64,000 nucleotides of DNA from Verrucomicrobiaceae bacterium (lineage in GTDB: Bacteria > Verrucomicrobiota > Verrucomicrobiia > Verrucomicrobiales > Verrucomicrobiaceae): NCBI GenBank assembly GCA_019694165.1, contig JAIBCL010000023.1, positions 1 through 64,000 on the forward strand. Direction: 5' to 3'. How positions within the stretch are numbered: position 1 is the stretch's first letter; the number at the start of each line of letters is the position of its first letter. Made by a program: the position numbers and the translations under genes. The notes beneath the pieces were generated by a model, which saw nothing but the letters and a program-made list of their open reading frames with translations, was not told the DNA's origin and made no database searches. Below, one piece after another: positions 14,891-32,200 of this stretch.

Positions 14891-15042
14891 GCGGCGCGAC
14901 GAAAGCACGGCCTGAGACGGCGTGCCACGCGTTTTGCCGCGGGCTTTTCAGTCACGCTCTCACCATCGAAAACAGCAAAAGATTACTCAATGACAAGAAT
15001 CGTCGTTCACATGCACACATTGTTGTGCGTTAATACCAACGC

Positions 15043-15963
15043 ATGAAGAAACCAACTCACTTCTCTCTCCGTTGGCTCCTGGCACTCGCTGTCTGTGGAG
15101 TCGTCTCCGCCACCACTTCGCAGGCCGGTACCGCCGTCTCCGCGAAGGCTCCGAAAAACCCCGTCCCGATGGCCGCAGTGGACTGGAAGGAAAACACCAT
15201 CTCCCCGGTCGCCAATCCGATCTTCTTCGAAGACCCGATCATCCGCAGCGAGATCAGGCCGATCTTCGCCTACCACCGCATCGACCCCGGTTTCGTGACC
15301 GGCGACGGTGATGCCGAGCTTTACGCCCTCCAGCTTCGTTACGCGATCACCGACCGCCTCGCGTTCATTGCCACGCAGGACGGCTACTTCAATGTGCATA
15401 CCGACAATCTCGGTGACCTTGATGGCTGGATGGACGTGGCCGCCGGCTTCAAGTATGCGCTCATCGACGATCCGGCCAACCAGTTCATCCTCACCCCGGG
15501 CTTCACCTTCTTCATCCCGATGGGCAATGAGGAAGTGTTCCAAGGCCGCGGTTCAGGTGAGTGGAATGTGTTCGTGTCCGCTGAGAAAGGCTTCAATGAC
15601 CTGCACCTCACCACGAATGTAGGCGTCCGCTTCCCGAACGACACGAGCGAGCAGAGCACCATCCTCCACTACAGCCTCCAGGCCGACTACTATGCCTCCC
15701 GCTGGTTCATCCCCTTCGTGGTGGCCAATGGCTGGACGGTGCTGGCTGACGGCAATGGCCTGCCCCTTACCACGGAAGGTTATGACGTGATCAACTTCGG
15801 CGCTTCCCGCTCCAGCGGCAGCACGGTGATGACCGTCGGCGGCGGTTTCCGCTCGCGTCTCACAAAGAACATCGACTTCGGTGCCGCCTATGAAGTCGCG
15901 GTCATCAGCCCGGAAGGTCTGACTGACGACCGGTTCACCTTCGACTTCTCGATCCGCTTCTAA
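15043..15963 (+). CDS. Outer-membrane beta-barrel protein, function unknown
   Basis: A 306-residue exported protein. Residues 1-28 are a signal peptide (LLALAVCGVVSATTSQA). The mature chain is a run of alternating amphipathic strands (YALQLRYAITDRLAFIATQ, FILTPGFTFFIP, DYYASRWFIPFVV). It ends with a terminal aromatic strand FTFDFSIRF, the phenylalanine signature recognised by the Bam complex. Size suggests a barrel of 10-12 strands. No porin loop or ligand motif is recognisable. It is monocistronic: a strong intrinsic terminator follows 77 bases downstream. Confidence 0.8.
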   Translation: MKKPTHFSLRWLLALAVCGVVSATTSQAGTAVSAKAPKNPVPMAAVDWKENTISPVANPIFFEDPIIRSEIRPIFAYHRIDPGFVTGDGDAELYALQLRYAITDRLAFIATQDGYFNVHTDNLGDLDGWMDVAAGFKYALIDDPANQFILTPGFTFFIPMGNEEVFQGRGSGEWNVFVSAEKGFNDLHLTTNVGVRFPNDTSEQSTILHYSLQADYYASRWFIPFVVANGWTVLADGNGLPLTTEGYDVINFGASRSSGSTVMTVGGGFRSRLTKNIDFGAAYEVAVISPEGLTDDRFTFDFSIRF

Positions 15964-16039
15964 TTTGTGGCCGGATCGAACACCTGCCCGTTTCTTTTTT
16001 GTCAGTAGTTCAGTAGTAATACAGGGTTGGTTAGAAGAG

Positions 16040-16075
16040 AACCGCATGAGGGCGCAAGTCCTCATGCGGTTTTTT
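16040..16075 (+). terminator. Rho-independent terminator of the beta-barrel gene
   Basis: AACCGCATGAGG (16040-16051) pairs with CCTCATGCGGTT (16060-16071), a perfect 12-bp stem with an 8-base loop, followed by a run of Ts to 16075. This is the clearest intrinsic terminator in the window. Confidence 0.9.
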
Positions 16076-16164
16076 CATGTTTGGCTTCGTGCCTTGCCAC
16101 GGACGATTTGCCCGGTGGATCCGCCCGTGCCCCCGCCGCATCGGACCGGAGAGCCAGGCAGGCA

Positions 16165-17013
16165 TCACGCCCACTGGAGCCGCACCATGTAGAAAGTCGC
16201 ATAAACGAAGATCGCCAACCCCACGAAGAAGAACGACCACCGGACCCTTGTTTTAAACACCAGGCCGATGCCGGCCAGCGCGAGGCTGATGGTGAAAAAC
16301 ACACTCGCCAGCGAGAACTGATCACCCACCGTCGAGGTGGAACTGGCCTGGCTTATGATCTCCTGCGCCTTGTCGCTCTCTGCGCGACTCGCACGATACA
16401 TGGCCTCATAATACTCGGGAGTCAGTTCCGATTGCGTCAGCGGACTGAGGTCTTCCTCGGCAATATCGTCGCTGCCGACTACCTTCGCGGTGCGCTCGGC
16501 CTCGGAGGGCAGCTTCAGGTCCTTGTATGCCACCGGTCCCAGTTCGTGCAGCAGAAGCAACGCCGCCTGATGCATGAAGACGTCCCTCTCAGGCGAATCC
16601 CTCTTGCTGAGCAATCCCTGCCAGATGATCCGTTTGGCTTCGATGTAAACATGCAGGTCGTGGCTGATAAATGCGTTTGCCATCGCCGCGGACGATGCAG
16701 CTTTCGTGGTCTGGACGGACGCCTTCGTGAACTGCGCCACGGCATTGCCGTTCCAGAGGCCGTTCTGATAACCAGCCAGCCCTGCGCAAATCGCGCCGCA
16801 CGCCAGCAGGACGGCGGTGCACAGTTCGAAGAGTTCAATGGACGCCTTCGCCTCCGCGGCAGCGGCTTCCATTTTTTCCACCGCGATCCGCGCATCCCTC
16901 GCGGCGGCTTCAGCGTGGAGCGCCGACTCCTCTGCAGCCTCGGCCTCTGCGGCGGCAATCCCGGCCTGTTCGACAGCCGACTTCAAATCACTTGTTGCTT
17001 TGTTGGTGTTCAT
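16165..17013 (-). CDS. DUF4337-like membrane protein
   Basis: A 282-residue protein starting at ATG 17013. Residues 10-55 are an Ala/Glu/Lys heptad-rich coiled coil (AEAAEESALHAEAAARDAR). A transmembrane helix follows (about 62-82, LCTAVLLACGAICAGLAGY), then a helical domain (85-225). Two closing transmembrane helices (about 230-250 and 258-278) flank a short basic loop. The pattern of N-terminal coiled coil, membrane hairpin and late membrane pair resembles DUF4337 proteins, whose function is unknown. Convergent with the beta-barrel gene and divergent from the first sulfatase. Assignment to the family is tentative. Confidence 0.65.
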   Translation of the reverse strand: MNTNKATSDLKSAVEQAGIAAAEAEAAEESALHAEAAARDARIAVEKMEAAAAEAKASIELFELCTAVLLACGAICAGLAGYQNGLWNGNAVAQFTKASVQTTKAASSAAMANAFISHDLHVYIEAKRIIWQGLLSKRDSPERDVFMHQAALLLLHELGPVAYKDLKLPSEAERTAKVVGSDDIAEEDLSPLTQSELTPEYYEAMYRASRAESDKAQEIISQASSTSTVGDQFSLASVFFTISLALAGIGLVFKTRVRWSFFFVGLAIFVYATFYMVRLQWA

Positions 17014-17182
17014 TCGCGTCGGACGCGGAGAATCCTGTGCCGGCACCGTCTTGCAAGCAGATCAATATGTTTGAGACCATGGACCGGCGCGGCTGCCCCA
17101 CTCCAAAGTGCTCCGCGGAACTTTCATTTCGCCGCCAAAAATCCGTGCGCTCATCGTTCCCTATCGCGCACAAATTCCGTCC

Positions 17183-19108
17183 ATGCACTCCTCGCTTCGC
17201 TCTCTCCTCATTGCTTCGGCCGTCGTCCTCTCCGCCCACGCGGAGACGAGGCCGAACATCGTCTTCATCCTTGCCGACGATCTCGGCGCGCATGATCCGC
17301 ATTGCTTCGGCAGCACCTATCATGAGACGCCGAACATCGACCGCCTCGCCGCGCGTGGCGTGAAGATGATGCAGGCGTATGCCGCGAGTCCGCTTTGCTC
17401 GCCGACGCGCAGCAGCATTCTGGCGGGCATTTATCCGGCGCGCTCGGGGATCACGACGCCATCCTGCCACGAGGTGCGCGTGAATTTGGAAAAGAAGCTC
17501 GTCGCAAAGGCGACGCCGCAGATGCGCGCGATCAATTCCGACAGCCTCACGCGATTGAAGCCCGATTACTTCACGCTGGCGGAGTCGCTAAAAGAGGCCG
17601 GATACGCGACGGCTCACTTCGGCAAATGGCATCTGGGGCACAACCTGCCCGATCATCCCGAGGATCACTACGAGCCGAAAGATCAGGGCTTTGACTTCGA
17701 CTTTCCGCACACGCCGAGCGCGCCGGGACCAGGCGGCGGTTACCTCGCACCGTGGACGAAGTTCATCAAAGATCCAAATATCACGGGCAAGCCGGGCGAG
17801 CACATCGAGGATCGCATGTCACAGGAGGCGGCGAAATACATCCGCGAGCACGAAGACTCGCCGTTTTACGTGAACTACTGGGCCTACTCCGTGCATTCGC
17901 CGTGGAATGCGCGGCAGGATTACATCGACTACTTCAAGCCCAAGACTGACAAGAAAAACCCGCAGCACAATCCGCTCTACGCCGCGATGGTGCGCAGTCT
18001 CGACGACGGCGTCGGCCGACTGCTCGATGCGATCGACGAGGCTGGTGTCGCCGATCGCACCATCATCGTCTTTTTCTCCGACAACGGCGGCTGGGCGTAT
18101 CCGCCGAAGGCCACCGATCCCGATGGCTACGCCGACGAACCAGCGACGAGCAATCTGCCGCAGCGCAGCGGCAAGGCCTCGCTCTACGAAGGCGGCACAC
18201 GCGAGCCGTGCATCATCGTGTGGCCAGGCAAAACGAAGGCTGGCAGTGAGAACGATGCGCTTTTCCAGAGCACGGATTTTTACCCGACGCTGCTCTCGAT
18301 GTGCGGCATCAAACCGCACGCTGATGTGAAGCTCGATGGATTCGATCAATCGCGCACGCTGCTCGGAGAGGTGTCGCCGCGCGATCGCGTCTTCTGCCAT
18401 TTCCCGCATGGCACGCCGAATCAGGCCGAGAGCATTCCTGGAATGCTGCCCGGCACGTATGTGCGCAAGGGCGACTGGAAGCTACTGCGTTTCTACGCCG
18501 ACAATGACGACGGCAGCGATCGCTTCGAACTCTACAACCTGAAGGACGATCCCGGCGAATCGAAGAACCTCGCCGCACAAAAGCCCGAACTCGTGCGCGA
18601 GCTGAACAACCTCATCACCGGCTTCCTCAAGGATACCGAAGCCGTCGTACCGGTGCGCAATCCGGACTACGGTAAAGTCGTCGCGAAAGCTGGCGCGAAG
18701 AAGATCGACGAGGAATTCCCCGGCCTCGAAGGCTGGAAGGCGCGGAGCTGCGAGGCGAAAGCGAAGAACGGCATCGTGACCGTCACAGGCAACGGCGGCG
18801 CGCCATTTCTCGGCTACGGCATCGGCAAGGACAAAGGTCCGGCCGTCGTGAAGCTGCGGGCGCGCTGTGCGAGTGGCGGCGACGGCAAGATCGAGTGGAT
18901 TCCCAGCGGCAAGGCAACCAAGGATGCCGACATGCACTCAGTGCCGTTCAAACTCACCGGTGGCGACTGGCAGGAGGTGAGCGTCAACGTCCCGGCAAAA
19001 GGCGAGATCGGCATCATACGCGTCTATTTGCCCGCGATCTCCCAGCCAGTCGAACTGGACTGGATCGAATTCAAAGCCGCCGGCAAACCGAAGCGCTGGA
19101 ACTTTTAA
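17183..19108 (+). CDS. Secreted type I sulfatase with extra C-terminal domain
   Basis: A 641-residue arylsulfatase-type enzyme cleaving sulfate esters, probably in the periplasm. Signal peptide at residues 1-20 (ends SAHA-E). Metal ligands DD in FILADDLG (32-33), formylglycine site CSPTR (Cys72, converted after translation), GKWHLGH, and SDNGGW supply the active site. The body ends near residue 490. The rest is a beta-rich domain (VTVTGNGGAPFLGYGIG onward), possibly a carbohydrate-binding or jelly-roll fold, also seen at the end of the fifth sulfatase in this window. GTG at 17108 gives a longer frame but the ATG at 17183 restores a clean signal peptide. First gene of a two-sulfatase unit. Substrate unknown. 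Confidence 0.92.
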   Translation: MHSSLRSLLIASAVVLSAHAETRPNIVFILADDLGAHDPHCFGSTYHETPNIDRLAARGVKMMQAYAASPLCSPTRSSILAGIYPARSGITTPSCHEVRVNLEKKLVAKATPQMRAINSDSLTRLKPDYFTLAESLKEAGYATAHFGKWHLGHNLPDHPEDHYEPKDQGFDFDFPHTPSAPGPGGGYLAPWTKFIKDPNITGKPGEHIEDRMSQEAAKYIREHEDSPFYVNYWAYSVHSPWNARQDYIDYFKPKTDKKNPQHNPLYAAMVRSLDDGVGRLLDAIDEAGVADRTIIVFFSDNGGWAYPPKATDPDGYADEPATSNLPQRSGKASLYEGGTREPCIIVWPGKTKAGSENDALFQSTDFYPTLLSMCGIKPHADVKLDGFDQSRTLLGEVSPRDRVFCHFPHGTPNQAESIPGMLPGTYVRKGDWKLLRFYADNDDGSDRFELYNLKDDPGESKNLAAQKPELVRELNNLITGFLKDTEAVVPVRNPDYGKVVAKAGAKKIDEEFPGLEGWKARSCEAKAKNGIVTVTGNGGAPFLGYGIGKDKGPAVVKLRARCASGGDGKIEWIPSGKATKDADMHSVPFKLTGGDWQEVSVNVPAKGEIGIIRVYLPAISQPVELDWIEFKAAGKPKRWNF

Positions 19109-19126
19109 CCGTCACTCGTCATCATC

Positions 19127-20545
19127 ATGAAAACACTCGCCGCCTGGCTCATTCTCTCCGCCCTTTGCACTCCGCTCTTCGCGACTGCAAAGCAGCCAAA
19201 CGTCCTCGTCATCTTCGCCGACGATCTCGGCTATGCCGACATCGGCGTGCAAGGCGGCAAAGACGTTCCGACGCCAAACATCGATGCGCTCGCCGCGTCC
19301 GGCGTGCGCTGCACGAACGGCTACGTGTCGGCACCGTATTGCAGTCCGTCGCGCGCGGGTTTTCTCACGGGCCGCTACCAGACCCACTTCGGTCATGAGT
19401 TTAATCCGCACGTCGGCGATGAAAAGACCCTCGGCCTGCCTCTGACGGAGAAGACGATCGCCGATCATCTTCGCGCGGCTGGCTACGCGACGGGGCTCAT
19501 CGGCAAATGGCATCAGGGATTCAATGAAGCGCATCATCCGCAGTCACGCGGATTCGACGACTACTTCGGCTTCCTCGTCGGCGGTCACAATTACCTGCTG
19601 CACAAGGACGCCGAGCCTGAGTTCGGTTCCGCCCATTCGCACAACATGATCTACCGCAGCCGCGAGCTGCAAAAGCTCGACGGTTACACCACCGACCTCT
19701 TCACCGACGAAGCGCTCGGCTTCATGGACCGTCACAGGGACAAACCGTGGTTTCTCTACCTCGCCTACAATGCCGTCCACACGCCATTGGAGATCAAGGA
19801 GAGCCTCAAAGCGCGCATCCCCGCCAGCGTGACCGATGAAGACCGACGCGGCTATCTCTCGCTGCTGCTCGGCCTCGACGACAATCTCGGCCGCGTCGTC
19901 GAGCATCTGAAGAAGACCGGCATCGACAAAGACACGCTCATCTTCTTCGTCAGTGACAACGGCGGCTCCGGTCACAAACCCTACTTCGCCTACAACACCG
20001 GCGTGAACAAACCGCTGCGCGGTGACAAAGGTCAGACGCTGGAAGGCGGCATCCACGTTCCTTTCTTCGTCGTGTGGCCAGGCAAGCTGCCGGCTGGCAA
20101 GGTTTACGAGCAACCTGTCATCACGCTCGACATCCTGCCGACTGCGCTTGCGGTCGCGAACAGCAAGACCGACGCGCCGCTCGACGGCGTGAACCTTTTC
20201 CCGTTCCTCACCGGCGAGAACACAACCGCTCCGCACGACATGCTGTTCTGGCGATTCAGTCCGCAAAAGGCCGTGCGCAAAGGCAAATGGAAGCTGGTCG
20301 ATTGGCGCGACTTTGACGCGAAGAAACAAAGCGGCTGGCAACTCTACGATCTCGAAGCCGACATCGGCGAGGACCACGACCTCTCCGCCCAGCATCCAGA
20401 AATCGTCGCCGAGTTGTCGAAGGCATGGGACAAGTGGAACGAGAAAAACATCACGCCGCTCTGGCACGGAGCCGCGAACGAAGATCCAACCGCTCCGCAG
20501 CCAGCGAAGCAGAAACAGGATAAGAAGGCGGCGAAGAAAAAATAG
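19127..20545 (+). CDS. Secreted type I sulfatase
   Basis: A 472-residue sulfatase with signal peptide (1-20, LFATA), metal-binding FADDLGYAD (Asp32, Asp33), formylglycine Cys72 in CSPSR, GKWHQG and SDNGGSGHKP. The serine at the fourth motif position (CSPSR) is permitted. The C-terminus is a Lys-rich tail. It lies 18 bases after the first sulfatase, so the two are likely cotranscribed. It converges with the nucleoside hydrolase operon, only seven bases separating the stop codons, with no evident terminator between. Confidence 0.93.
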   Translation: MKTLAAWLILSALCTPLFATAKQPNVLVIFADDLGYADIGVQGGKDVPTPNIDALAASGVRCTNGYVSAPYCSPSRAGFLTGRYQTHFGHEFNPHVGDEKTLGLPLTEKTIADHLRAAGYATGLIGKWHQGFNEAHHPQSRGFDDYFGFLVGGHNYLLHKDAEPEFGSAHSHNMIYRSRELQKLDGYTTDLFTDEALGFMDRHRDKPWFLYLAYNAVHTPLEIKESLKARIPASVTDEDRRGYLSLLLGLDDNLGRVVEHLKKTGIDKDTLIFFVSDNGGSGHKPYFAYNTGVNKPLRGDKGQTLEGGIHVPFFVVWPGKLPAGKVYEQPVITLDILPTALAVANSKTDAPLDGVNLFPFLTGENTTAPHDMLFWRFSPQKAVRKGKWKLVDWRDFDAKKQSGWQLYDLEADIGEDHDLSAQHPEIVAELSKAWDKWNEKNITPLWHGAANEDPTAPQPAKQKQDKKAAKKK

Positions 20546-20552
20546 TCGTCGT

Positions 20553-21572
20553 TCACTTCGCCTTCGACGGCGGAGCGATGCTGAGCTGCACGATCGCCTC
20601 ACGCACCTTCGCGGTTTGCTCGGGGCTCATCACGAGGAAGCGGTGGCGCCCTTTGCCGTCCTTGCTCGGACGGAAGACAGTGCCCGCGTCGGCATCAACC
20701 GTCACATTGCCAGCGGGCGACAAATCGAAGTAACCGCGATCCGGCATCACCGCGTAGAGCACCGCGGTCGGGTCCCACGTCGGACGATCATGCGGTGGTG
20801 GATTGTAGAGGTAGTAGGCTTCCTTCAGCGGATGATGCGGCACGTAGTTGAGATCCTGCTCGATGACGACGTGCGGAAAGGCTGCCGCCACACCGATCTC
20901 GTAGCCGCTCCACACGAGCTGCGTCGGCCACTCCTTCGCGAGCTTCTGCGCGGCGGGGATGTCGAGCTTCACGTTGTATTCCAGGTGTCGCGTATTCCAC
21001 TGCACGGTCTGAAACGCGCCGGCCATGATGCTGAGCACCTTGACCTTTTGCTTGATGAGATCGCGACCACTCAAGGGCGAATTCGCATCAGCCTTCGAGT
21101 CCAGCAGACGCGCGAGGTTCGTGAAGAAGCCGACCTGCGCGATGGCCACGGAATTGTCCGGCTGTGCGGCGAGAATCTTGCGGATCAAGCCGACGGCCTC
21201 GGGCGCATCCTTGCCGCTGAGCAAATCGTGCGGGTAGCGGAAGGAGCCGTCCGGATTCTTTTCGTCCGCGAGCAGATTGAACTTCCCAGCTTCCTTCGCC
21301 GCGCCGTCATGCACAACACCAATGGGTGTGTCTGGATGACCAAACATCGTGTTCACCGCATCGACAAACGGCGCAGCCTGCGGATGATCCTTTGTGATTG
21401 TCACCGCGAGCAAATCGACTGTGCCGCGCGATTGCAGGTTGTTGATCATGCACAACGCCATGAGGTCATCGACATCATTGCCCATGTCCGTGTCGAAGAT
21501 GAGCTTCACGGGCTCTGCCGAAATGACGAAAGACGAATGAAGAATGACGAAGGCGGCGAAGAGTCGTTTCAT
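20553..21572 (-). CDS. Secreted nucleoside hydrolase-family protein, last gene of operon
   Basis: A 339-residue protein with a signal peptide (residues 1-19, ending VISA) and the nucleoside hydrolase signature IFDTDMGNDVDDLMAL. The Asp cluster binds Ca2+ that activates water for N-glycosidic cleavage. Further family marks are a central MAGAFQ and WSGYEIG segment. The DxDxGxDxDD spacing is the variant frequent in Bacteroidetes and Planctomycetes proteins, not the DTDPGIDD of cytosolic enzymes, so the substrate may not be a standard nucleoside. Its ATG overlaps the upstream gene's stop as ATGA (21569-21572), showing translational coupling. About 40 percent-level resemblance to the upstream paralogue is visible by eye. 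Confidence 0.85.
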   Translation of the reverse strand: MKRLFAAFVILHSSFVISAEPVKLIFDTDMGNDVDDLMALCMINNLQSRGTVDLLAVTITKDHPQAAPFVDAVNTMFGHPDTPIGVVHDGAAKEAGKFNLLADEKNPDGSFRYPHDLLSGKDAPEAVGLIRKILAAQPDNSVAIAQVGFFTNLARLLDSKADANSPLSGRDLIKQKVKVLSIMAGAFQTVQWNTRHLEYNVKLDIPAAQKLAKEWPTQLVWSGYEIGVAAAFPHVVIEQDLNYVPHHPLKEAYYLYNPPPHDRPTWDPTAVLYAVMPDRGYFDLSPAGNVTVDADAGTVFRPSKDGKGRHRFLVMSPEQTAKVREAIVQLSIAPPSKAK

Positions 21573-22555
21573 TTTCGAGGTGGTTGGATGGTGAGTTGCA
21601 TGATGGCTTCGAGTGCGCGCGCTTGCTGCACGGAACTCATCGTGAGGAAACGGTCGCGAGTGCTGACCTGTGTCTTGCCTTTGGGTGTGAAGCGCGTGAA
21701 GCCGTCATCTAGCACCTTCACGCGGCCGGGCTGCGACAGACCGAAGAAATCGCGTTCGGGAAACACGGCATACAACACGCTGCTCTCGTCCCAGCACGGC
21801 CGGTCGTGCTCGGGGCCGCTGTGCAGCAGGTAGGCTTCCTTCACGATGTGATGCGGTGTGTAGTCGAGATCGCGCTGGATGACCACACGCGGAAACGGCA
21901 GCGCCTCGCCAATCTCGTAGCCGCTCCACACGATGGGCACGTCCTCTGGCCACTGATCGGACACGGTTTGCATGAAGCCGACGCCGTTGATGACATTCGC
22001 TTCGAGGTGGTAGTTCGTATGGTTACAGAACGCGAACGCACCCGCCATGATCGAGAGCAGCTTCACCTTTTGTTTGATCAAGGCGACGCCGCCGGGCGAC
22101 TTGACCAGGTTCGCCATGTTCGATGCGATGCCGACGCTGATGATGCTCACGCTGTGATCAGGTTGCTTCGTGAGCAGCTCGCGCAAAAGCTCCACTGCGT
22201 CGCGTGCTTGGTCGTTGCTGCGCAGATCGTGCGGATAGTCGGGTGAGTCGGCGAGCTTCAGGTATTTGCTCTGGCGCTTCTGCGCCGAGGGATCGCGTGT
22301 CACACCGATCGGCAGATCGGGGCGACCATAGAAAGTGTTCTCCGCATCGACGAAGCTGGCGGTGAGGGGATCGACCTTCGAGATCGTGACGCCGAGCAAC
22401 TCACACGCACCGCGATCCGCAAGTGAGTGACACATCGCGAGCGCAAGCACATCGTCCACGTCTCCGGTAATGTCGGTGTCGAAGATGATCTTCGGCTTCT
22501 CGGCGAAGAGCGAAGAGCAAAGGGCGAAGAGGACGAGGCTGGTGCGCATGATCAT
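21569..22555 (-). CDS. Secreted nucleoside hydrolase-family protein, paralogue
   Basis: A 328-residue paralogue of the next gene with a signal peptide (MRTSLVLFALCSSLFA) and metal motif IIFDTDITGDVDDVLALA. It keeps the same conserved blocks: LGVTISKVDPLTASFVDAENT, LSIMAGAF and WSGYEIGEALPFPRVV. The ATG at 22555 overlaps the permease stop as ATGA, so this start is preferred over the long upstream frame, which is the permease read in another phase. Export of both hydrolases next to a sugar transporter suggests N-ribosyl or similar glycosides are split outside the cytoplasm and the sugar is then imported. This is inference. Confidence 0.85.
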   Translation of the reverse strand: MIMRTSLVLFALCSSLFAEKPKIIFDTDITGDVDDVLALAMCHSLADRGACELLGVTISKVDPLTASFVDAENTFYGRPDLPIGVTRDPSAQKRQSKYLKLADSPDYPHDLRSNDQARDAVELLRELLTKQPDHSVSIISVGIASNMANLVKSPGGVALIKQKVKLLSIMAGAFAFCNHTNYHLEANVINGVGFMQTVSDQWPEDVPIVWSGYEIGEALPFPRVVIQRDLDYTPHHIVKEAYLLHSGPEHDRPCWDESSVLYAVFPERDFFGLSQPGRVKVLDDGFTRFTPKGKTQVSTRDRFLTMSSVQQARALEAIMQLTIQPPRK

Positions 22556-23475
22556 TTTCTTCTCCAGGTATCCGCCAGCACAGCGGCGACGATGACCGTG
22601 CCGGTGACGACACGCTTCATCGGCTCGCTGGCACCGGTTTGAACGAGACCGGCTTCCAGCGTCGCGATGATGAGCACGCCCATGAAGCTCTTCACGACAG
22701 AGCCGCGCCCGCCCATGAGGCTCGTGCCGCCGACCACCACCGCAGCGATCGCGCTCAACTCGAAGCCGACTCCGGCATTCGGGTCTGCGGAGCCCAGACG
22801 CGAGCAGTTGAAGACAGCCGCGAGTCCGGTCAAGGCACCGAGCGCGGCGTGAGCCAGGATGCGCGGGCGATCCACGGGCACACCGGAGATCATCGCAGCT
22901 TCGCGGTTCGCGCCGATGGTGATCAAGTGGCGACCGAAGGCGGTATGCGAGAGCAGCACCTGGCCCGCGATCACAAAGAGCGCGCTGATCACGAACGCGG
23001 GCGAGATGACGAGTCCGGCAAAGGGTGAGCCGAGTGACTCGATGCCTGCGCCGATGTACTTCGTTTGCGAATTCGTTGTGAGGAAGGCCAGCCCGCGCGC
23101 GATCTCCAACATGCCGAGCGATACGATGAACGACGGCAGCCGCAGCTTCACGCTCACCGCACCCGTCGTGCTGCCGATCGCACCACCGACTATAATGCTT
23201 CCCAGCAAGGCAAGCATCAGTCCCCAGTGCCAGTCGGTCATCATCACGCCAACTACAGCCCCGCAAAGCCCAAGCAACGATCCGACCGACAAATCGATCC
23301 CACCCGTGACCATCACCAGCGTCATGCCGGTCGCGACAAGCGCCAGCGCTGGGATGCGATTGGCTACACTGCCGAGCGTGGCCACGCTGAAGAAACTGTC
23401 CCGCAGCGAACCAAACAGCACGACCATTGCGGCGAGCACGGCGATGAGGATGAAGAAGTCAGTCCAGCGGCGCAT
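22552..23475 (-). CDS. RbsC-type sugar ABC transporter permease
   Basis: A 307-residue inner-membrane permease of the BPD_transp_2 (ribose/xylose/AI-2) family. It has about eight to ten helices and the family segments TGGIDLSVGSLLGL, VSLGMLEIARGLAFL and the EAA-like loop region GANREAAMISGVPVDRPRI, which would contact the ATPase. The late GGTSLMGGRGSV is also characteristic. It overlaps the upstream GrpB-like gene by 17 bases and the downstream hydrolase by four. No ATP-binding subunit (RbsA type) is encoded in this operon or in the window, so a shared ATPase from elsewhere must be assumed if it works as an importer. Confidence 0.9.
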   Translation of the reverse strand: MRRWTDFFILIAVLAAMVVLFGSLRDSFFSVATLGSVANRIPALALVATGMTLVMVTGGIDLSVGSLLGLCGAVVGVMMTDWHWGLMLALLGSIIVGGAIGSTTGAVSVKLRLPSFIVSLGMLEIARGLAFLTTNSQTKYIGAGIESLGSPFAGLVISPAFVISALFVIAGQVLLSHTAFGRHLITIGANREAAMISGVPVDRPRILAHAALGALTGLAAVFNCSRLGSADPNAGVGFELSAIAAVVVGGTSLMGGRGSVVKSFMGVLIIATLEAGLVQTGASEPMKRVVTGTVIVAAVLADTWRRK

Positions 23476-24016
23476 GAGAAGAAGCGTGAGAATGCCACCA
23501 CGACAAAGCAGCGGCCTCTATTTCGACAATCCGGTCGCTCTTGCAATCACCGTAGGCATGCGAGTCGTCGGGATGCAACGACTGGCAGCGTCGCTTCTCA
23601 CCGTCGTAAGCCAACGCAATGTCTGGGTGACTCCTCAGGTAATCGCGGAAGGCGAGATGCCGGGCGATGTGTGGCGAGCGTTCGACAAAGCAATGCAACT
23701 GCACCAGTCGCCTGCCCGAAGTAGCATCCGAATTTGAGCAATAGCGACGGCCTTCAATTCCCAGTTCGCCCCACCACTCGTAGCCAAGGGCTTCGACGGC
23801 CTGACGACGGTCATCGAGTTCATCCAACGATGAAACGACAGGCATCAGGTCGAGGATTGATTTGGCGACGATGCCGGGGATGGCAGTGGAGCCGATGTGG
23901 TGAAGAGCAACAAGCGTCGGCCCTATTGCGTCACGGAGCCGCTCGGCTTCGAGTTCGGCCTCGCGAGCCCAAGCAGGATCGTGCGGCACGAGTTCGACTT
24001 TGATCGGCGGAGGCAC
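23459..24016 (-). CDS. GrpB-family nucleotidyltransferase-like protein
   Basis: A 185-residue GrpB/DUF/UPF0157 protein. Family marks are the start VELVPHDPAWA, LHHIGSTAIPGIVAKSILDLMPVV (nucleotidyltransferase-like GS with paired acids) and HCFVERSPHIARHLAFRDYLRSHP. Members are proposed to transfer nucleotides but have no settled function. I chose the GTG at 24016: the open frame to ATG 24067 reads through a palindromic repeat and has no family match. No Shine-Dalgarno is seen. Its placement within a sugar-uptake operon, overlapping the permease start by 17 bases, is unusual. It could be a later insertion that arrived with the repeat. Confidence 0.8.
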   Translation of the reverse strand: MPPPIKVELVPHDPAWAREAELEAERLRDAIGPTLVALHHIGSTAIPGIVAKSILDLMPVVSSLDELDDRRQAVEALGYEWWGELGIEGRRYCSNSDATSGRRLVQLHCFVERSPHIARHLAFRDYLRSHPDIALAYDGEKRRCQSLHPDDSHAYGDCKSDRIVEIEAAALSWWHSHASSHAPLD

Positions 24017-24019
24017 GTT

Positions 24020-24090
24020 AAAGTAGTGAAGGGCTTTAGCCCGCCGGTGATCGAGCGGACCGGTCACGCGCTAAAGCGCATGACTACTTT
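24020..24090. repeat. REP-like imperfect palindrome between two operon genes
   Basis: Arms 24020-24043 and 24067-24090 pair at 20 of 24 positions (AAAGTAGTGAAGGGCTTTAG against CTAAAGCGCATGACTACTTT), with a second short CCGGTGA/TCACG pairing inside. The right arm includes the stop codon of the sugar-binding protein gene (24084-24086). The form suggests a dispersed palindromic unit; I cannot count other copies from this window. Confidence 0.65.
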
Positions 24091-25025
24091 GTGACCACAT
24101 CCACCGGCGTCTGCTGATCCTCTGGCGTTGTCTTGTCCTTCAGAATCTTCAGCGCGGCTTCGATGCCGAAGACGGCGAGCTGATCGCCATGCTGGTCGGC
24201 GGTGGCGAGGACGCGACCATCCGCGAGCAGAGGTTTGATGGCGGCGATGTTGTCGAAGCCGACGATCTGGACTTGGCCAGCTTTACCTGCGGCTTGCACA
24301 GCGGCAGCCGCCCCGAGGGCCATGTTGTCGTTGGCGCAGAGGAGGGCTTTGACGTTCGGGTTCGCGGCGAGGATGCCGCTGGCGACGGTGTTGGCCTTGT
24401 CCATCTCCCACTGGCCGCTCTGCGTACTCACGATCTTCATCCCAGCGGCATTCATCGCGTCCTCAAATCCGGCGCGGCGCTGCTGTCCGTTGAAGGCGGT
24501 GGTGACGCCTTCGATGATGGCGACTTCATCTCCTGCATTGAGCTTCTTCGCGAGTACCTCGGCCACGGCCTTGGCTCCGGCGCGGTTGTCGGGGCCGACG
24601 AAAGGGATCGCAAGCCCAGCTTGCTTGAGCGTGTCCGCATCGAGCTTGTTGTCGATGTTGATGACGAGCACGCCCGCGTCCTTCGCTCGCTTCAAAACGG
24701 TGATCAGCGCCTTCGAGTCAGCGGGCGCGACGACGATGGCCTGCACGCCTTGCGAGATCATTTGCTCGACGAGACCGACTTGCTCCGCGAGATCCGTCTC
24801 GTTCTTGATCCCGTTCACGATGAGATCGTACTCAGCGGCGTGCTCGGCTTGATGCTTCTTCGCACCATTTGCCATCGTCTGGAAGAACTCATTCGCCAGC
24901 GACTTCATCACGAGCGCGACCTTGGGCTTGCCAGCGGCAGATGCGTTTGAAGACGGGGCAGATGGCTTGCACGCCGGGAGACTGATGGCGAAAGCGAGCA
25001 GGAGAGGGAGGCGGATGGTCATCAT
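24084..25025 (-). CDS. Sugar-binding lipoprotein of an RbsB-type ABC importer
   Basis: A 313-residue periplasmic binding protein of the Peripla_BP_4 (ribose/galactose) class with a lipoprotein signal (ISLPAC, Cys19). Canonical segments are VALVMKSLANEFFQTMANGAK, QGVQAIVVAPADSKAL, VINIDNKLD, IPFVGPDNRAGAK and the hinge AIIEGVTTAFNGQQRRAGF, followed by ALLCANDNMALGA. Ligand class is inferred as a pentose or hexose. Start: two adjacent ATGs (25025, 25022) give a clean signal; longer frames are not supported. It is the first gene of the operon and divergent from the secreted esterase gene, with 111 bases between starts where the promoters should lie. Confidence 0.9.
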   Translation of the reverse strand: MMTIRLPLLLAFAISLPACKPSAPSSNASAAGKPKVALVMKSLANEFFQTMANGAKKHQAEHAAEYDLIVNGIKNETDLAEQVGLVEQMISQGVQAIVVAPADSKALITVLKRAKDAGVLVINIDNKLDADTLKQAGLAIPFVGPDNRAGAKAVAEVLAKKLNAGDEVAIIEGVTTAFNGQQRRAGFEDAMNAAGMKIVSTQSGQWEMDKANTVASGILAANPNVKALLCANDNMALGAAAAVQAAGKAGQVQIVGFDNIAAIKPLLADGRVLATADQHGDQLAVFGIEAALKILKDKTTPEDQQTPVDVVTK

Positions 25026-25136
25026 AGAGTGGCTGGAGTTGCTGGAAGAAACGCCGCTATTCTGTCTGCCTTCCACGCGCGGCGCAATGCCGGAGGATGG
25101 CTGACAAATCATCGCGCGGCCCGTCGTTCTGCCTCC

Positions 25137-25997
25137 ATGCTTCGCCATTCACTCTCGCTCTGCATCGTCGTCATCGCGTGCGTTTCATCATTCGCCGCTG
25201 ATCCTGTCTCGCACGTTTACAAGAAGGTCGCTGATCGTGAACTCACGCTCAACACCTTCAATCCGCCCGACTGGAAAGCAGCCGACCAGCGGCCCGCGAT
25301 CGTCTTCTTCCACGGCGGCGGATGGGTCGGTGGTTCGCCGAAGCAGTTCCTCAAACACTGCGAGTATCTCGCGTCGCGCGGCATGGTCGCCATCGAGGCG
25401 GACTACAGGCACATTGCGAAGGGCGACAAAGGTCCGCCTGTCGATTGCGTGCACGATGCGAAGTCCGCGATGCGCTGGGTGCGCGGCCACGCGAAGGAAC
25501 TCGGCATTGATCCGAATCGCATCGCAGCCGGCGGCGGCAGTGCAGGCGGACATCTCGCGGCGTTCGTCGGCATGGTCGATGGACTCGACGATCCGGCGGA
25601 TGATTTGAATGTGTCGGCCAAGGCGAACGCGCTCGCGTTGTTCAATTCCGTCTTCGACAACGGCCCCTATCAAGGCTGGGGCCGCGAGCGCGTCGGTGAT
25701 CGCTTCAAGGAATTCTCGCCAGCGCATAACATCAGCAAGGACGATCCGCCCGCGATCATCTTCCTCGGCACGCAGGACAAGCTGATTCCCGTGAGCGTGG
25801 TCGAGCGCTTCAAGGCGAACATGGAAAAGGCCGGCTTGCGCTGCGAAGCGAAGTTTTACGAAGGCCAGGGCCACGGCTTCTTCAATCCGGGCAAAGGCGG
25901 CACTGACGAATACTTTTATCAGACGCTCCTCGAAACAGACAAGTTCCTCACGTCGCTCGGCTGGCTGAAAGGTGAACCAACTCTTAAGAAGCCATGA
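25137..25997 (+). CDS. Secreted alpha/beta-hydrolase (esterase/acetyl-xylan-esterase-like)
   Basis: A 286-residue exported hydrolase of the hormone-sensitive-lipase/BD-FAE type. Signal peptide at 1-20 (CIVVIACVSSFA). The oxyanion motif HGGGWVGG follows, then the nucleophile elbow GGGSAGGH (catalytic Ser), an Asp in FLGTQDKLIP and the His in GQGHGFFNP complete the triad. Many relatives deacylate plant or algal polysaccharides, which fits neighbouring sulfatases. The stop overlaps the next sulfatase start as ATGA (25994-25997). Substrate is inference. Confidence 0.9.
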   Translation: MLRHSLSLCIVVIACVSSFAADPVSHVYKKVADRELTLNTFNPPDWKAADQRPAIVFFHGGGWVGGSPKQFLKHCEYLASRGMVAIEADYRHIAKGDKGPPVDCVHDAKSAMRWVRGHAKELGIDPNRIAAGGGSAGGHLAAFVGMVDGLDDPADDLNVSAKANALALFNSVFDNGPYQGWGRERVGDRFKEFSPAHNISKDDPPAIIFLGTQDKLIPVSVVERFKANMEKAGLRCEAKFYEGQGHGFFNPGKGGTDEYFYQTLLETDKFLTSLGWLKGEPTLKKP

Positions 25998-27574
25998 AGC
26001 AATCGGTCCTCCGCCCAATGAAACACATCCTCCTCATCCTGCTGCTCGCACTCGGCTGCGTCGTTCACGCGACCACAAAGCCCAACGTCATCATCTTCCT
26101 CGTCGATGACATGGGTGTGATGGACACGTCGCTGCCGTTCCTCACTGACGCGGATGGAAAGCTGCATCGCCATCCTTTGAACGAATTCTACCGCACGCCG
26201 AACATGGAGCGCCTCGCGGCACGCGGCGTGCGCTTCAACAACTTCTGCGCCATGAGCGTGTGCTCGCCGACGCGTGTGTCGATCATGACAGGGCAGAATG
26301 CGGCGCGGCATCGCACAACGAACTGGATCAATCCCGACACTAACAACGCCGGGCCGCAGGGCGCGCCGGACTGGAACTGGACCGGCTTGAAGAAGGGCGA
26401 TGTGACTTTGCCCGGCATCCTGAGCGCGAGCGGCTACGAGACGATCCACGTCGGCAAAGGCCACTTTGGTCCGCGCGACTCGGAAGGCGCGGAGCCGATG
26501 AATCTTGGCTTTGACATCAATGTCGCGGGTTGCTCCATCGGCGCACCGGGCAGCTACTTTGGCAAGATGAACTTCGGTGGCATCGTCGAGGGCAACGCGA
26601 AGGGCAAGAAGGCGAAGCAACCAGATGGGAAACCCAAGGCCGCCGTGCCGGGGCTGGAGAAGTATCACGGTCAGGACATTCATTTGACCGAGGCGCTGAC
26701 GATCGAAGCAAACGCGCGCGTGGCGGAGGCGGTGAAGGCGCAGAAGCCCTTTTATCTCTACCTCGCGCACTACGCCGTGCACGCGCCGCATCAGTCGGAC
26801 CCGCGATTCGCCGATCATTACAAGGACAGCGGCAAGCCGCAGCAGGCGCAGAACTTTGCAACGCTCGTCGAAGGCATGGACAAGTCGCTCGGCGACATGC
26901 TCGATCAACTCGACTCACTTGGCGTCGCGGAGAACACGCTCATTTTCTTCCTCGGCGACAACGGCAGCGATGCACCGCTCGGCCATGAGCACGCCGTCGC
27001 CTGCGCCGCGCCGCTGCGTGGGAAAAAGGGATCGCACTACGAAGGCGGGATGCGCGTGCCGTTCATCGCGGCGTGGGCGAAGCCGAGCGCGGCGAACAAA
27101 AACCAGAAGCGCCTGCCCATTGCGATCAACGCCATCCAGCCACAGCAGGCTGCGGTGTATGACATGTTCCCCACGATCTTGAACCTCGTCGGCGCGGAGA
27201 ATCCGGCAGGCCACATGATCGATGGTCGCAAGCTCGACACGCTGCTCACCGCGAAGCCGGACACGACTCGCGATGAGAAGTTTCTCATGCACTACCCGCA
27301 CGCGCCTCATCGGAGCGACTACTGGACGAGCCTGCGCGATGGCGAGTGGAAGGTCATCTATCACTACTTCCCCAAGGAAGAAGCTTCGGGCGGCAGCCAC
27401 TACCAGCTCTTCAATTTGAAGACCGACCCATACGAGCAGTCCGACCTCGCCAAAACAAATCCTGCCGAATTGAAGCGCATGATGCAGGAACTCATCGACG
27501 GCCTAGAAGCCCAGCACGCCGCGTATCCCGTCGAAAAAGGCACCAGCACGCCGGTAAGACCTCAGCTTCCCTGA
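25994..27574 (+). CDS. Secreted type I sulfatase
   Basis: A 526-residue sulfatase translationally coupled to the esterase by an ATGA overlap. Signal peptide around 9-27 (MKHILLILLLALGCVVHA; the second ATG at 26018 is an alternative start). Metal ligands sit in FLVDDMG, formylglycine Cys90 in CSPTR, and GDNGSD near residue 320. An extra loop between the first strand and the CxPxR motif (DADGKLHRHPLNEFYRTPN) makes Cys90 later than in its neighbours (about 72). It uses GKGHFG where others have GKWHLG. Substrate specificity cannot be told from this. Confidence 0.92.
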   Translation: MKQSVLRPMKHILLILLLALGCVVHATTKPNVIIFLVDDMGVMDTSLPFLTDADGKLHRHPLNEFYRTPNMERLAARGVRFNNFCAMSVCSPTRVSIMTGQNAARHRTTNWINPDTNNAGPQGAPDWNWTGLKKGDVTLPGILSASGYETIHVGKGHFGPRDSEGAEPMNLGFDINVAGCSIGAPGSYFGKMNFGGIVEGNAKGKKAKQPDGKPKAAVPGLEKYHGQDIHLTEALTIEANARVAEAVKAQKPFYLYLAHYAVHAPHQSDPRFADHYKDSGKPQQAQNFATLVEGMDKSLGDMLDQLDSLGVAENTLIFFLGDNGSDAPLGHEHAVACAAPLRGKKGSHYEGGMRVPFIAAWAKPSAANKNQKRLPIAINAIQPQQAAVYDMFPTILNLVGAENPAGHMIDGRKLDTLLTAKPDTTRDEKFLMHYPHAPHRSDYWTSLRDGEWKVIYHYFPKEEASGGSHYQLFNLKTDPYEQSDLAKTNPAELKRMMQELIDGLEAQHAAYPVEKGTSTPVRPQLP

Positions 27575-27577
27575 TTC

Positions 27578-29224
27578 ATGCAACGTCTCGCCATTTTCCT
27601 TTCGTCATTTGCCATTCTGGTTTCGTCATTCGCGGCGCAGCCGCGTCCAAACATCCTCTTCATCCTCTCCGATGATCACAGCTATCCGTTCATCCACTGC
27701 TACGGACGCGAGGAGATGAAGACGCCAAACTTGGATCGCTTCGCTGCGGAGGGCATCATGTGCCGCCGCATGTTCACCGGTGCGCCGCAATGTGTGCCAT
27801 CGCGCGCGACGATCATGACGGGACGCTCGCCCGTCGCGGCCCGCATCACGCGCTTCTCATCACCGCTGCCGAAAGAGGAAATCACGTTCCCGGAAGTGCT
27901 GAGGAAAGAGGGCGGTTACTTCGTCGGCTGTCTCGGTCGCACTTACCATCTCGATGGCTCAGGCAGGCAGCCGGAAGCCACCTCGAAAGTCTTCGATGAG
28001 TATCATCTCACGACCTTCAAAGAACGCTTCAACTACGTCGATGCGAGCGGCCAGGAAGCCGTGCCGGAGAAGATGAAGGAGTTCTTTGATCAGCGCCCCA
28101 AAGATCAGCCATACTTTCTCTGGGTCGGCTTCAGCGATCCGCATCATCCTTGGAACACCGGCAAGAATCCGCCTGATCCTGCGAAGCTGAAGGTGCCCGG
28201 CTTTCTGCCTGATCTGCCCGGCGTGCGCCACGATCTCTCCGAATACGAAGGCGAGATCGAGCACTGCGACGGCGACTTCCAGCGCGTGGTCGACATCGTG
28301 AAGGACCGCGCTGGTTTGGACAACACGCTCGTCATCTTCATGGGCGACAACGGCATGGCCTTCCCCAGCGGCAAAGGTTCGCTGCACGATCCCGGCTTGA
28401 ACGTGCCGCTGCTCGCGTGGTGGCCTGGTGTGATCAAACCGGGCGGTGATTCGAGCGTGCTTATCTCAGGCGAAGACATTGGCCCGACCTGCATCGACGC
28501 TGCCGGACTCAATGTGCCCGAGCGCATGAGCGGCGTGAGTTTCCTGCCGCTGCTCAAAGGCGAGAAGTTCACCAAGGAACGCGAATACATCTTCGCCGAG
28601 CGCGGCCCGCACGGCAGCGCGACTTTCGACGAACACACGACCGCGAGTGGTGTGGACTACAGTCGTTGCGTGCGCAGCCAAGGCTGGAAGCTGATCTACA
28701 ACGTCACACCGAACATGCGCTACACACCGGTGGACAGCGCAGGCGATCCAAGCTGGCAGGACATCACGAAAGCGCATGAGCAGCAGCAACTCGCCAGCGA
28801 GTTCGAGACGCTTTGGTTCACCAGTCCGCGCGCGGTTTACGAACTCTACGATCTCAAAGAAGACCCCAGCGAGCTGCACAATCTCTACGGCGACAAGCGC
28901 CACGCCGACGTGACGATGGAGCTGAAGACCGCACTGCAAAAGAAGATGATCCTCGACTACGACTACCTGCCGCTGCCCATCGCAGGCGACGCGAAGAAAG
29001 GACCGAAAGACAACGCCAAAGGCAAAGCCACCGCGAATCGTGCTGAGATATTCAAGCGCCTGGACACGAATCACGATGGCAAGTTGAGCAAGGAAGAGTT
29101 CAGCGCGAACCGCAACGCAGCGGATGCCGAGGGCTGGTTCAAAGCTCGCGACGTGAACAACGACGGCTTCGTTGAAGAAACCGAATACAAGGCGGGCACC
29201 GTGCCTAATCCGCCCAAGCGCTAA
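27578..29224 (+). CDS. Secreted sulfatase with C-terminal EF-hand pair
   Basis: A 548-residue sulfatase whose start lies three bases after the preceding stop. Signal peptide 1-20, metal motif FILSDDHSYPF, formylglycine Cys72 in CVPSR, and MGDNGMAF. Residues about 487-545 hold two EF-hands: DTNHDGKLSKEE and DVNNDGFVEETE, each with Asp/Asn/Asp/Gly/Glu calcium ligands. EF-hands fused to sulfatases are unusual but known in Planctomycetes/Verrucomicrobia secretomes. They could serve calcium-dependent stability or attachment. The iduronate-2-sulfatase-like SDDHSY block suggests a different subfamily from the first two. Confidence 0.92.
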   Translation: MQRLAIFLSSFAILVSSFAAQPRPNILFILSDDHSYPFIHCYGREEMKTPNLDRFAAEGIMCRRMFTGAPQCVPSRATIMTGRSPVAARITRFSSPLPKEEITFPEVLRKEGGYFVGCLGRTYHLDGSGRQPEATSKVFDEYHLTTFKERFNYVDASGQEAVPEKMKEFFDQRPKDQPYFLWVGFSDPHHPWNTGKNPPDPAKLKVPGFLPDLPGVRHDLSEYEGEIEHCDGDFQRVVDIVKDRAGLDNTLVIFMGDNGMAFPSGKGSLHDPGLNVPLLAWWPGVIKPGGDSSVLISGEDIGPTCIDAAGLNVPERMSGVSFLPLLKGEKFTKEREYIFAERGPHGSATFDEHTTASGVDYSRCVRSQGWKLIYNVTPNMRYTPVDSAGDPSWQDITKAHEQQQLASEFETLWFTSPRAVYELYDLKEDPSELHNLYGDKRHADVTMELKTALQKKMILDYDYLPLPIAGDAKKGPKDNAKGKATANRAEIFKRLDTNHDGKLSKEEFSANRNAADAEGWFKARDVNNDGFVEETEYKAGTVPNPPKR

Positions 29225-29236
29225 CCCGCCCTGCTC

Positions 29237-32200
29237 ATGCGTTTGCTGCTCTCGCTCATCGCGATTTCGTCCGCTGCTTTCGCCGATGACTGGCCCACAT
29301 GGCGGCACGATGCTCAGCGCTCGGGTGCGACGACTCATGCGCTGCCGAAGGAGATGAAGTTCGTGTGGTCGCGTCAGTTGGAGAAGCCTGATCCGGCGTT
29401 CGACTATCACTTTCGTCTCTGCGCGGATCAGGCAAACGAGCCCGTCGCGGCGAAAGGCATTGTCTTCGTTCCCTCGAACACGAACGACAGCGTCACGGCT
29501 TACGACATGCAGAGCGGCGCGGAGAAGTGGCACTTCGTCACGGAAGGGCCGGTGCGGTTTGCTCCGGTGGTGAGCGGGGATCGTGTGATCTTCGGTTCGG
29601 ATGATGGATGGTTGTATTGCGTAGAGGCGAGCAGCGGCTCTTTGAAATGGAAGACACGCAGCGCACCGGAGGATCGCGGGGATTATCGAATGCTGGTGAA
29701 CGCGCGGATGTGCTCGCACTGGCCGGTGCGCGGTGGGCCGGTGGTGCAGGGCGATGTCGTGTTCTTTGGCTGCGGCATCTGGCCGAGTGAAGGCGTGTGG
29801 CTCGTGGCGGTCGATGTCGCGACGGGCAAGGTGAGGTGGCGCAGCGATGAGATCGCGCAGATTGATGACGGACTCGACGAGCACGGTCGCATGGCCGACA
29901 TGGGTTTGCCGCCGCATGGCTATCTGGCGATGCTCGCGGGCAAGGTCGCGATGCCGAGCGGTCGTGCGCTCGCGGCGTTTGTCGATCCGGCGAACGGACA
30001 CCTCGATCCGTATGCCTCGTATTATGCGAAGGTGTATCCCGTGCCGCGCGGCTCGTGGGCGGTGTGCGGGAATGCGGACTATTGGTTTCAAGGCGGAGCC
30101 GTGATGGGCACGAACGCGAGCGCATTGGAGAAGCTGCCCGCAGGGCCGCTGAGTGTGGAAGAGTTCGCGCGGCTCGCGGGCAAGGATGTGGCTTGGGCGA
30201 ATGACATGATCCGTCGCAAGTTCGTCAAGATGAAGGACGGCAAGGTCATGGCGGACCTGAGCGATCCGAGCATTGCGATGTTCATCTCCAAAGGACGCGG
30301 CTACACTCAGGGCCAGCTCTTCCAGATGGCGGAGCGGCCCGTGCTGAACATGGCGCAGATTGGCACGCGTCACGAAGTGGGCGAACGAGGCCAGCCAGTG
30401 TTCACCGACAAGCTGATGTTCCGCAGCGAGTTCGCCGATCCAAAGGGTCTCGAAGTCGAGCGCGGCATGACTCGCATCACCGCTCCGCAGTATGACGTGC
30501 TGCGTGCATACAAGCTCGATGAGGCCGCGTGGAAACTGACGGTGATGCCTTCGAAGCGTGACGAGGTAGTGCAGCGACACCTCGAGTTCCCGATCGCGTG
30601 GGAGCTAAAGGTGAAGGCGTTGACCGTGAAGCTGCTCGCGGGTGATCGCTTGTATCTTGCGGGTGAGAATCAAATCGTCGCCGTCGAGGCGAAGGAGCCG
30701 AAGATCGTGTGGCAGCAAGCAGTGAAGGGCTATCCCGTTGGCATGATCGCAGCGAACGATCATCTCATCGTGAGCACTGATGCGGGCGCGTTGTATTGCT
30801 TCGGCGCGACGACCAACGAGCCGAACATCATCGCTCGCGAGAAACCGCCCGCTTGGGAACGAATCCCGCAATGGCGCGGTCAGATCGCGAAACTCAAAGG
30901 CAATCTTCGCGGCGGCTACGGTCTCGTGCTCGGCTGGAACAGCGGCGAACTCGCGAAGGAACTCGCGTTGCAGACGACGCTGGACGTCATCGTCGCCGAA
31001 CCGGATGCAAGCATCGCAGCGAAGGCACGCGAAGCATTGGCCAAGGAAGGCGCGTGGGCGCGGAGGCTGCACATTGTCACCGGCACGAGCGATGCCTTGA
31101 AGCTGCCGCCTTACTTCGCAGAGATCGTGCTGTGTGAGAGTCTCACCACGCTCGACAACGGCGCTCGTGTCTGGATTCGCATCGCACTCGATGCGCTGCG
31201 GCCCTACACCGGTGTCGCGATGCTGCCGTTGCGTCCGAAGCTGATCGAGCAGGCGAAGGCTCACGTCGAAGCGATGGGCGGCTACGAGTTCGCGACGGAG
31301 AAGAATTTCACGACCATTCGCCGCACCGACGCACCAAAGGGCGCGGACAATTGGACGCACGAAGCCGCGAGCGCGGCGAACACGTTTGCTTCCGGCGACA
31401 AGCTCGCGGTGCCGCCGTTCGGCTTGCTTTGGTATAGCGGCGGCATTGACCGCGAGTTCTCACCTCAGTTCGAGTTTCATCACAATCGCAATCCGTATCC
31501 TACCATCGTGAGTGGCCGCATGTTCATGCTCGCGGCGAATGAGTTGCACGCGGTCGATGCTTACACGGGTCGTCATTTGTGGGAAGCCACGGTGCCCGAG
31601 TCGCCGAAGAGCGAGCGTCGTCTCGGTGATCATCGGCAGTTCTCTCGTCCGACGGATCAAAATCTCATCGCGACGGCGGATCTCGCCTACGTGCTGCGCG
31701 AGAACGATGCGCAAGTCATCGACGCTGCGACGGGCAAGCTGCTGCCAGCGATCACGGTGCCGAAAGATGATGGAGTGTGGGACGAAGCACGCGTCGAGGG
31801 CGAGATGTTGTTTGTCGCAATTGGCAAACGTTTGGTCGCGATGGATCGCACGAGCGGTGCCGTGAAGTGGTCGCACGACGCTGGCAAAGATCACGTCGCG
31901 TTTGGCCTCGGCGATGGACACGTTTTCACCATCGCCTACTCGACCGCTCGCGGTCAGAGTCAGTCGAAGATCGACGCCGAGAAGAACGAACTCGTCGTGC
32001 TCAAAGCCAGCACGGGCGAGAAGCTGTGGAGCGAATCGCTCGATGCACAGGCGCGCAAAGATCAGACGGACCGCAGCGCAGGCAAGCCCGCGTGGAGCGG
32101 CATCTTCCAGGACAATCCTTTGAAGCCCACGCTGCACTACAATGCCGCGCATGGCGTCGTGCTCGCGATCATGGATCGTCACGACTTCCGGGCGTTCAAT

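Follow-up and report, generated by a model that had tools for sequence, protein, structure and literature searches.

An ATPase-less CUT2 sugar importer operon with two nucleoside hydrolases in Verrucomicrobiaceae, and a candidate shared XylG-type ATPase

Sharing of one ATPase between importers is known from CUT1 sugar transport, in which MsmK and MsmX act as shared (multitask) ATPases (PMC7658222, PMC8579813, PMC4746261, PMC11212667). In C. bescii, each CUT2 system is reported to have a dedicated ATPase (PMC8579813), and in Sulfobacillus the CUT2 subunits are described as adjacent (PMC13226494). Cleavage of nucleosides by an exported enzyme is known from P. aeruginosa, which has the exported nucleosidase Nuh and takes up the ribose (PMC5437708, PMC5522865). 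Here, we describe an operon at positions 20553-25025 of a 64,000-nucleotide stretch from a Verrucomicrobiaceae bacterium (assembly GCA_019694165.1, contig JAIBCL010000023.1, positions 1 to 64,000; the whole stretch is called the window). It combines a sugar-binding lipoprotein, an RbsC-type CUT2 permease and two probably exported nucleoside hydrolases, and it holds no ABC ATPase. Searches of the open-licence PMC literature found neither a shared CUT2 ATPase nor this arrangement in Verrucomicrobia described.

We consider it likely that the exported nucleosidases feed a CUT2 importer whose motor, one shared XylG-type ATPase, acts in trans. Nucleosides or close N-ribosides in the periplasm would be split by the two hydrolases; the lipoprotein would capture the freed sugar, and the RbsC-type permease would import it. 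The power would come in trans from the XylG-type ATPase encoded at C38:6694-8229. This ATPase would also serve the adjoining XylH and a third, orphan permease, here called P52 (C52:32024-33373), and in most of the family, where its gene lies apart from all three permeases, it would be their common motor. The basis was computed: gene content, the lack of adjoining ATPases, a single ATPase clade, matching trees, purifying selection, catalytic residues and fold. With somewhat less assurance, we favor the wider reading that the family has merged its CUT2 importers onto one mostly separately encoded XylG-type ATPase, driving permeases of the RbsC, XylH and 450-residue types, and that the coupling loops changed together when the permeases' own ATPases were lost. 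The features concerned are listed below.

24084-25025, minus strand: sugar-binding lipoprotein of the RbsB/AlsB type (Peripla_BP_4, 1.1e-55; LPAC lipobox recognized by eye)
23459-24067, minus strand: GrpB-like gene (PF04229, 4e-42; GTG start), an insert that varies between loci rather than a constant member of the transporter
22552-23475, minus strand: RbsC-type (CUT2) permease without an adjoining ATPase (BPD_transp_2, 2.6e-43)
22861-22938, minus strand: permease loop (residues 180-205) presumed to couple to the ATPase, with Met at position 195, a site nearly always occupied by Arg in permeases that have a non-XylG ATPase of their own
21569-22555, minus strand: nucleoside hydrolase 1 (NH1), probably exported (IU_nuc_hydro, 3.7e-12)
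20553-21572, minus strand: nucleoside hydrolase 2 (NH2), probably exported (IU_nuc_hydro, 2.4e-17)
G000:C52:32024-33373 (L012:8022-9374): P52, orphan CUT2 permease of 450 residues (BPD_transp_2)

The five genes of the operon share the minus strand. The GrpB-like gene and the permease overlap by 17 bases, and ATGA overlaps join the permease to NH1 and NH1 to NH2; coordinates and Pfam matches confirmed this layout, which a first-pass annotation of the DNA had already described. The lack of an ABC ATPase, also stated there, held as well. The source genome, 96% complete and assembled to 7.8 Mb in 66 contigs, was scanned as a whole for ABC_tran, and none of the 68 matches lies on contig C31 (97,637 bases), to which the window belongs. 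The operon thus has the Peripla_BP_4-type binding protein and the BPD_transp_2 permease of a CUT2 importer, and the two-domain ATPase is missing both from its 97.6-kb contig and from all 27 comparable loci of the family.

A search of the whole genome for an RbsA-type ATPase elsewhere, as the first-pass annotation had suggested, gave a single two-domain ATPase of the XylG/RbsA type (C38:6694-8229; 586 bits, next best match 99 bits). It sits between a XylF-like binding protein (50.7% identity to E. coli XylF) and a XylH-like permease. Five BPD_transp_2 permeases were found in the genome, three of them of the CUT2 type, namely that of the window, XylH and P52.

The surroundings of these permeases were compared in a census of 96 genomes, 59 of which belong to the same family, Verrucomicrobiaceae, including the source genome. 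"Beside" means within 3 kb, and ATPases were counted at E <= 1e-60 among 15 candidates scored per genome, exhaustively in the source genome only. The window-type permease occurred in 27/59 family genomes, with an ATPase beside it in none and an RbsA-type ATPase elsewhere in all 27. P52 was present in 38/59 family genomes (ATPase beside it in 0/38, somewhere in the genome in 38/38) and XylH in 48/59 (beside in 3/48, somewhere in 47/48). All three permeases were found together in 22 family genomes, with exactly one ATPase match in 20 and two in the other 2. In 39 genomes that carry two or more of the three permeases, none of these has the ATPase within 3 kb. When 13 ATPase loci were inspected with their surroundings, no permease stood beside the ATPase, and XylF did so at 4. 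In G040, assembled into 6 contigs, a distance of 225 kb within a single contig separates the ATPase from XylH, so contig ends do not account for it; the other two permeases are on another contig. Outside the family, P52 had its own adjoining ATPase in 7/13 genomes. The named relatives with the operon were Verrucomicrobiaceae. They include Prosthecobacter metagenome-assembled genomes (MAGs) and an isolate, Brevifollis gellanilyticus NBRC 108608, whose genome also gave a single XylG-type ATPase match.

The first-pass annotation had explained the missing ATPase either by sharing or by recent loss. Because no family member with the permease, across several genera, has an ATPase beside it (0/27), the absence is not recent; it is common to the whole family and not peculiar to the window, and recent loss or local rearrangement was ruled out. 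Sharing was well supported by the genome census, the gene order and the matching trees described below, and it appears to extend to three permeases per genome. The family census gave the hallmark of MsmX/MsmK-type systems, one ATPase gene apart from several ATPase-less importers, with the ATPase of the source genome itself adjoining XylH. We infer physical pairing and shared use, in which one ATPase would energize more than one permease in an MsmX/MsmK-like manner.

Which ATPase fits the permease was indicated by seven loci in MAGs named Proteobacteria or Burkholderiales, whose permeases are 69-75% identical to that of the window. Their gene order is binding protein, permease, ATPase, and hydrolases are absent. 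The ATPase directly behind the permease (7/7 loci) is 60-64% identical to the C38 ATPase, compared with at most 46% (median 43%) for other clades, and it is the only XylG/RbsA-type match in 4/5 of the proteobacterial MAGs searched. One clade of the ATPase tree (support 100/99) contains the family's C38-type ATPases, the proteobacterial ATPases and the neighbors of XylH, and E. coli XylG joins it (96*). In the permease tree, the family permeases and the same proteobacterial permeases also form one clade (support 100/99), with the G022 permease (f1, 56% identical) outside it. Both trees have the same partition. Trees and loci together therefore show a single ATPase clade adjoining RbsC-type permeases in one lineage and XylH in a second. 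As a separate observation, the presence of this permease and ATPase at the seven loci (L139, L140, L141, L142, L144, L145 and L146) suggests transfer of the two genes across phyla.

Three PF01156 proteins are encoded in the source genome, two of them in this operon. At least one hydrolase was found within the operon in 25/27 family loci; the exceptions are G044, which lacks both, and G058, where a contig end truncates the locus. The linkage of hydrolase and permease predates the family, being found at loci with 56-64% identical permeases and at one Phycisphaeraceae locus. The signal-peptide-like starts of both hydrolases, reported before, were seen again by eye and recur in the listed NH1 and NH2 orthologues. 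In the motif D-T-D-x3-D-x-D-D, residues D8, D10, D14, D16 and D17 were invariant, as were N55, N133, E179, N181 and D248 (42/42 sequences, mature NH2 numbering); we take the Asp cluster and the latter five residues to be catalytic. The predicted structure of NH2 has a predicted local distance difference test (pLDDT) score of 94.4 and matches solved nucleoside hydrolases along its length (2mas, with a Z of 29.9 and a root-mean-square deviation of 2.9 over 283 residues). Judged from sequence and model, the PF01156 nucleoside-hydrolase fold and catalytic-type residues are kept, and N-glycosidic hydrolysis is predicted. External cleavage of N-ribosides by the putatively exported hydrolases, as proposed in the first-pass annotation, is supported indirectly, because export-signal-like starts, intact catalytic residues, the nucleoside-hydrolase fold and a conserved linkage to the transporter occur together.

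The nearest solved chain to the binding lipoprotein is 4yle_A (E 2.8e-115), followed by allose- and ribose-binding proteins, and its identity is 35% to E. coli AlsB and 30% to RbsB. The permease is 37% identical to E. coli RbsC, and a sequence search of solved structures gave no match for it. It is possible, if not what we favor, that the hydrolases cleave N-glycosides that are not ordinary nucleosides, such as modified ribosides or ones derived from NAD, and that the transported sugar is not ribose. The greater likeness to AlsB than to RbsB would fit this, as would the D-T-D-x3-D-x-D-D motif, the low Pfam scores of the hydrolases (47 and 64 bits, above the cut-off of 34.2) and a phmmer search of solved structures that returned no relative for either enzyme. 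However, fold and residues are typical of nucleoside hydrolases, and the genome has two ribokinase-like genes (265 and 258 bits), though both fall below the ribokinase cut-off of 299.65. We infer the enzyme activity, the export and the sugar identity.

The C38 ATPase, in our proposal the motor of all three permeases, might instead serve XylH only, with the window's permease driven by another ABC ATPase of the single-domain kind, LivG/F-like or MsmX/MalK-like. Many of the 68 ABC_tran matches are such single-domain ATPases, and CUT1 importers are known to share them (PMC7658222). The two BPD_transp_2 permeases outside the CUT2 type are neighbors on C22, adjoined by single-domain ATPases, and are LivH/LivM-like as judged from this arrangement. 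Against a single-domain motor, permeases of the same clade are followed by a two-domain, C38-clade ATPase in the proteobacterial MAGs, and the two trees match. Related loci in Verrucomicrobiota and Caballeronia also pair the permease with two-domain ATPases; for the distant permeases (Pedosphaera and others, Caballeronia), these are of another clade. Against NCBIfam, the C38 ATPase scores best with models of two-domain CUT2 ATPases, led by the xylose type (661.6 bits, below the cut-off of 699), which places it outside the MsmX/MalK (CUT1) family. We regard a single-domain motor as unlikely.

The presumed coupling loop of the permeases was scored at residue X of the motif GxNxxAA-X-[LIV]-SG. 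The counts omit L115-L138, which largely duplicate other genomes, permease matches under ~170 residues and the G061 row, gapped at the loop; the seeming duplicates L143, L149 and L156 were kept in the "named" rows only, and identical rows were dropped for the tree-based contrast. X was Arg or Lys in 35/36 permeases beside an ATPase of another, non-XylG clade. Arg was found in only 3/76 orphan permeases of the family (RbsC type 1/27, P52 1/38, XylH 1/11 fetched) and in 2/9 permeases beside XylG-type ATPases, and it was kept in 10/10 family permeases with their own other-clade ATPase and in 11/12 P52 outside the family. We regard this contrast as a hint and not as proof. ATPase residues that distinguish the C38 clade from the rest (e.g. 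58, 312, 419) were listed and are not tied to the permease loop.

All four operon genes compared had nonsynonymous divergence (dN) well below synonymous divergence (dS); for the permease, dN was 0.049-0.157 and dS 0.64-1.76 in five family pairs, the sixth pair being saturated at synonymous sites. A decayed operon was ruled out on these values. That lipoprotein and permease act without ATP, as a sensor or a facilitator for the sugar freed by the hydrolases, is very improbable: no ATPase gene stands beside the permease in 27/27 family loci, yet the coupling-loop motif is kept, selection is purifying, and an RbsA-type ATPase is encoded elsewhere in each family genome that carries the permease; those placed on the tree fall in the matching clade.

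Several points weigh against a shared XylG-type ATPase. The Caballeronia permease (51% identical) adjoins an ATPase of a different clade, so pairing with the XylG type is not ancestral for all related permeases. G019 (85% complete) carries XylH without an ATPase match, and many genomes are fragmented drafts in which contig ends could hide a neighbor in some. The loop Arg is kept in 2/7 proteobacterial permeases and in the P52 of G001, although a XylG-type ATPase alone is present there; E. coli AlsC has Phe despite its own ATPase, and E. coli XylH has Arg with XylG. On the tree, the loop contrast leaves 4 independent pairs on supported branches, on average 2.7 in the expected direction and 0.0 in the opposite one (sign test p 0.25); with 4 pairs only, independent statistical proof from the loop Arg was not reached. 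Co-occurrence of permease and ATPase (ATPase in 31/31 genomes with the permease vs 43/65 without; Fisher p 5.6e-5) ignores relatedness, is confounded by it and was not used as proof. The case for a shared ATPase is a genomic one, and as such it is good.

P52 was common in the order (51/96 genomes), with a ribulose-phosphate-epimerase-like reading frame (named by eye) nearby. Between its first and second membrane segments it has ~110 extra residues, which by eye resemble part of a sugar-binding lobe; above the Pfam cut-off, only the permease domain was found. The P52 of the sole other genome of the source genus searched (L166, G001:C81) clusters among permeases of a different family, which are accompanied by an ATPase of their own, and is perhaps a separate acquisition.

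The first-pass annotation had counted the GrpB-like gene as part of the run. It is present here; it is not a conserved part of the operon, since among the loci compared GrpB occurs only in the window (23459-24067) and in G011, while other genes occupy the gaps elsewhere. On the same grounds, GrpB was ruled out as a replacement for the ATPase. The other inserts are a 393-residue protein with a P-loop-like GPRRSGKT (L047:7942-9123, L122:833-2014, L124:6731-7912) and a 301-415-residue protein of another kind (gaps of L050, L062 and L063), and the operon seems to tolerate or attract inserted genes. Plus-strand sulfatase-like genes (named by eye) flank the operon on both sides (window 15000-29300), and sulfatase-like matches adjoin it in some relatives.

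If the proposal is true, a single gene would control the uptake of several sugars in Verrucomicrobiaceae, and annotations of such importers as "incomplete" would be wrong. The multitask ATPase would also be one that belongs to CUT2 and not to CUT1. The same genomes hold some permeases that have an ATPase of their own and others that lack one, and these would then be a natural set for finding what determines the pairing of permease and ATPase.

Of the known systems, MsmK/MsmX are alike in that several importers lack an ATPase gene of their own and a single one lies elsewhere (PMC7658222, PMC8579813); the ATPases there are single-domain and of the CUT1/MalK type, whereas the candidate here has two domains, is of the XylG type and goes with CUT2 permeases. 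E. coli RbsABC with RbsK has a binding protein and a single permease of the same families, but RbsA is in the E. coli operon, whereas here the ATPase is elsewhere and of the XylG type, and the operon includes hydrolases with export-like signals. E. coli XylFGH resembles the C38 locus, whose ATPase groups with XylG and whose adjoining binding protein is XylF-like; in the family, however, the ATPase gene is mostly apart from XylH. As with P. aeruginosa Nuh, nucleosides would putatively be cut outside the cytoplasm, with ribose uptake afterwards, but here two predicted hydrolases share one overlapping operon with a sugar permease. An exported nucleosidase feeding a sugar importer is thus a known kind of chemistry; what is unusual is that three CUT2 importers appear to have collapsed onto one XylG-type ATPase across a whole family.

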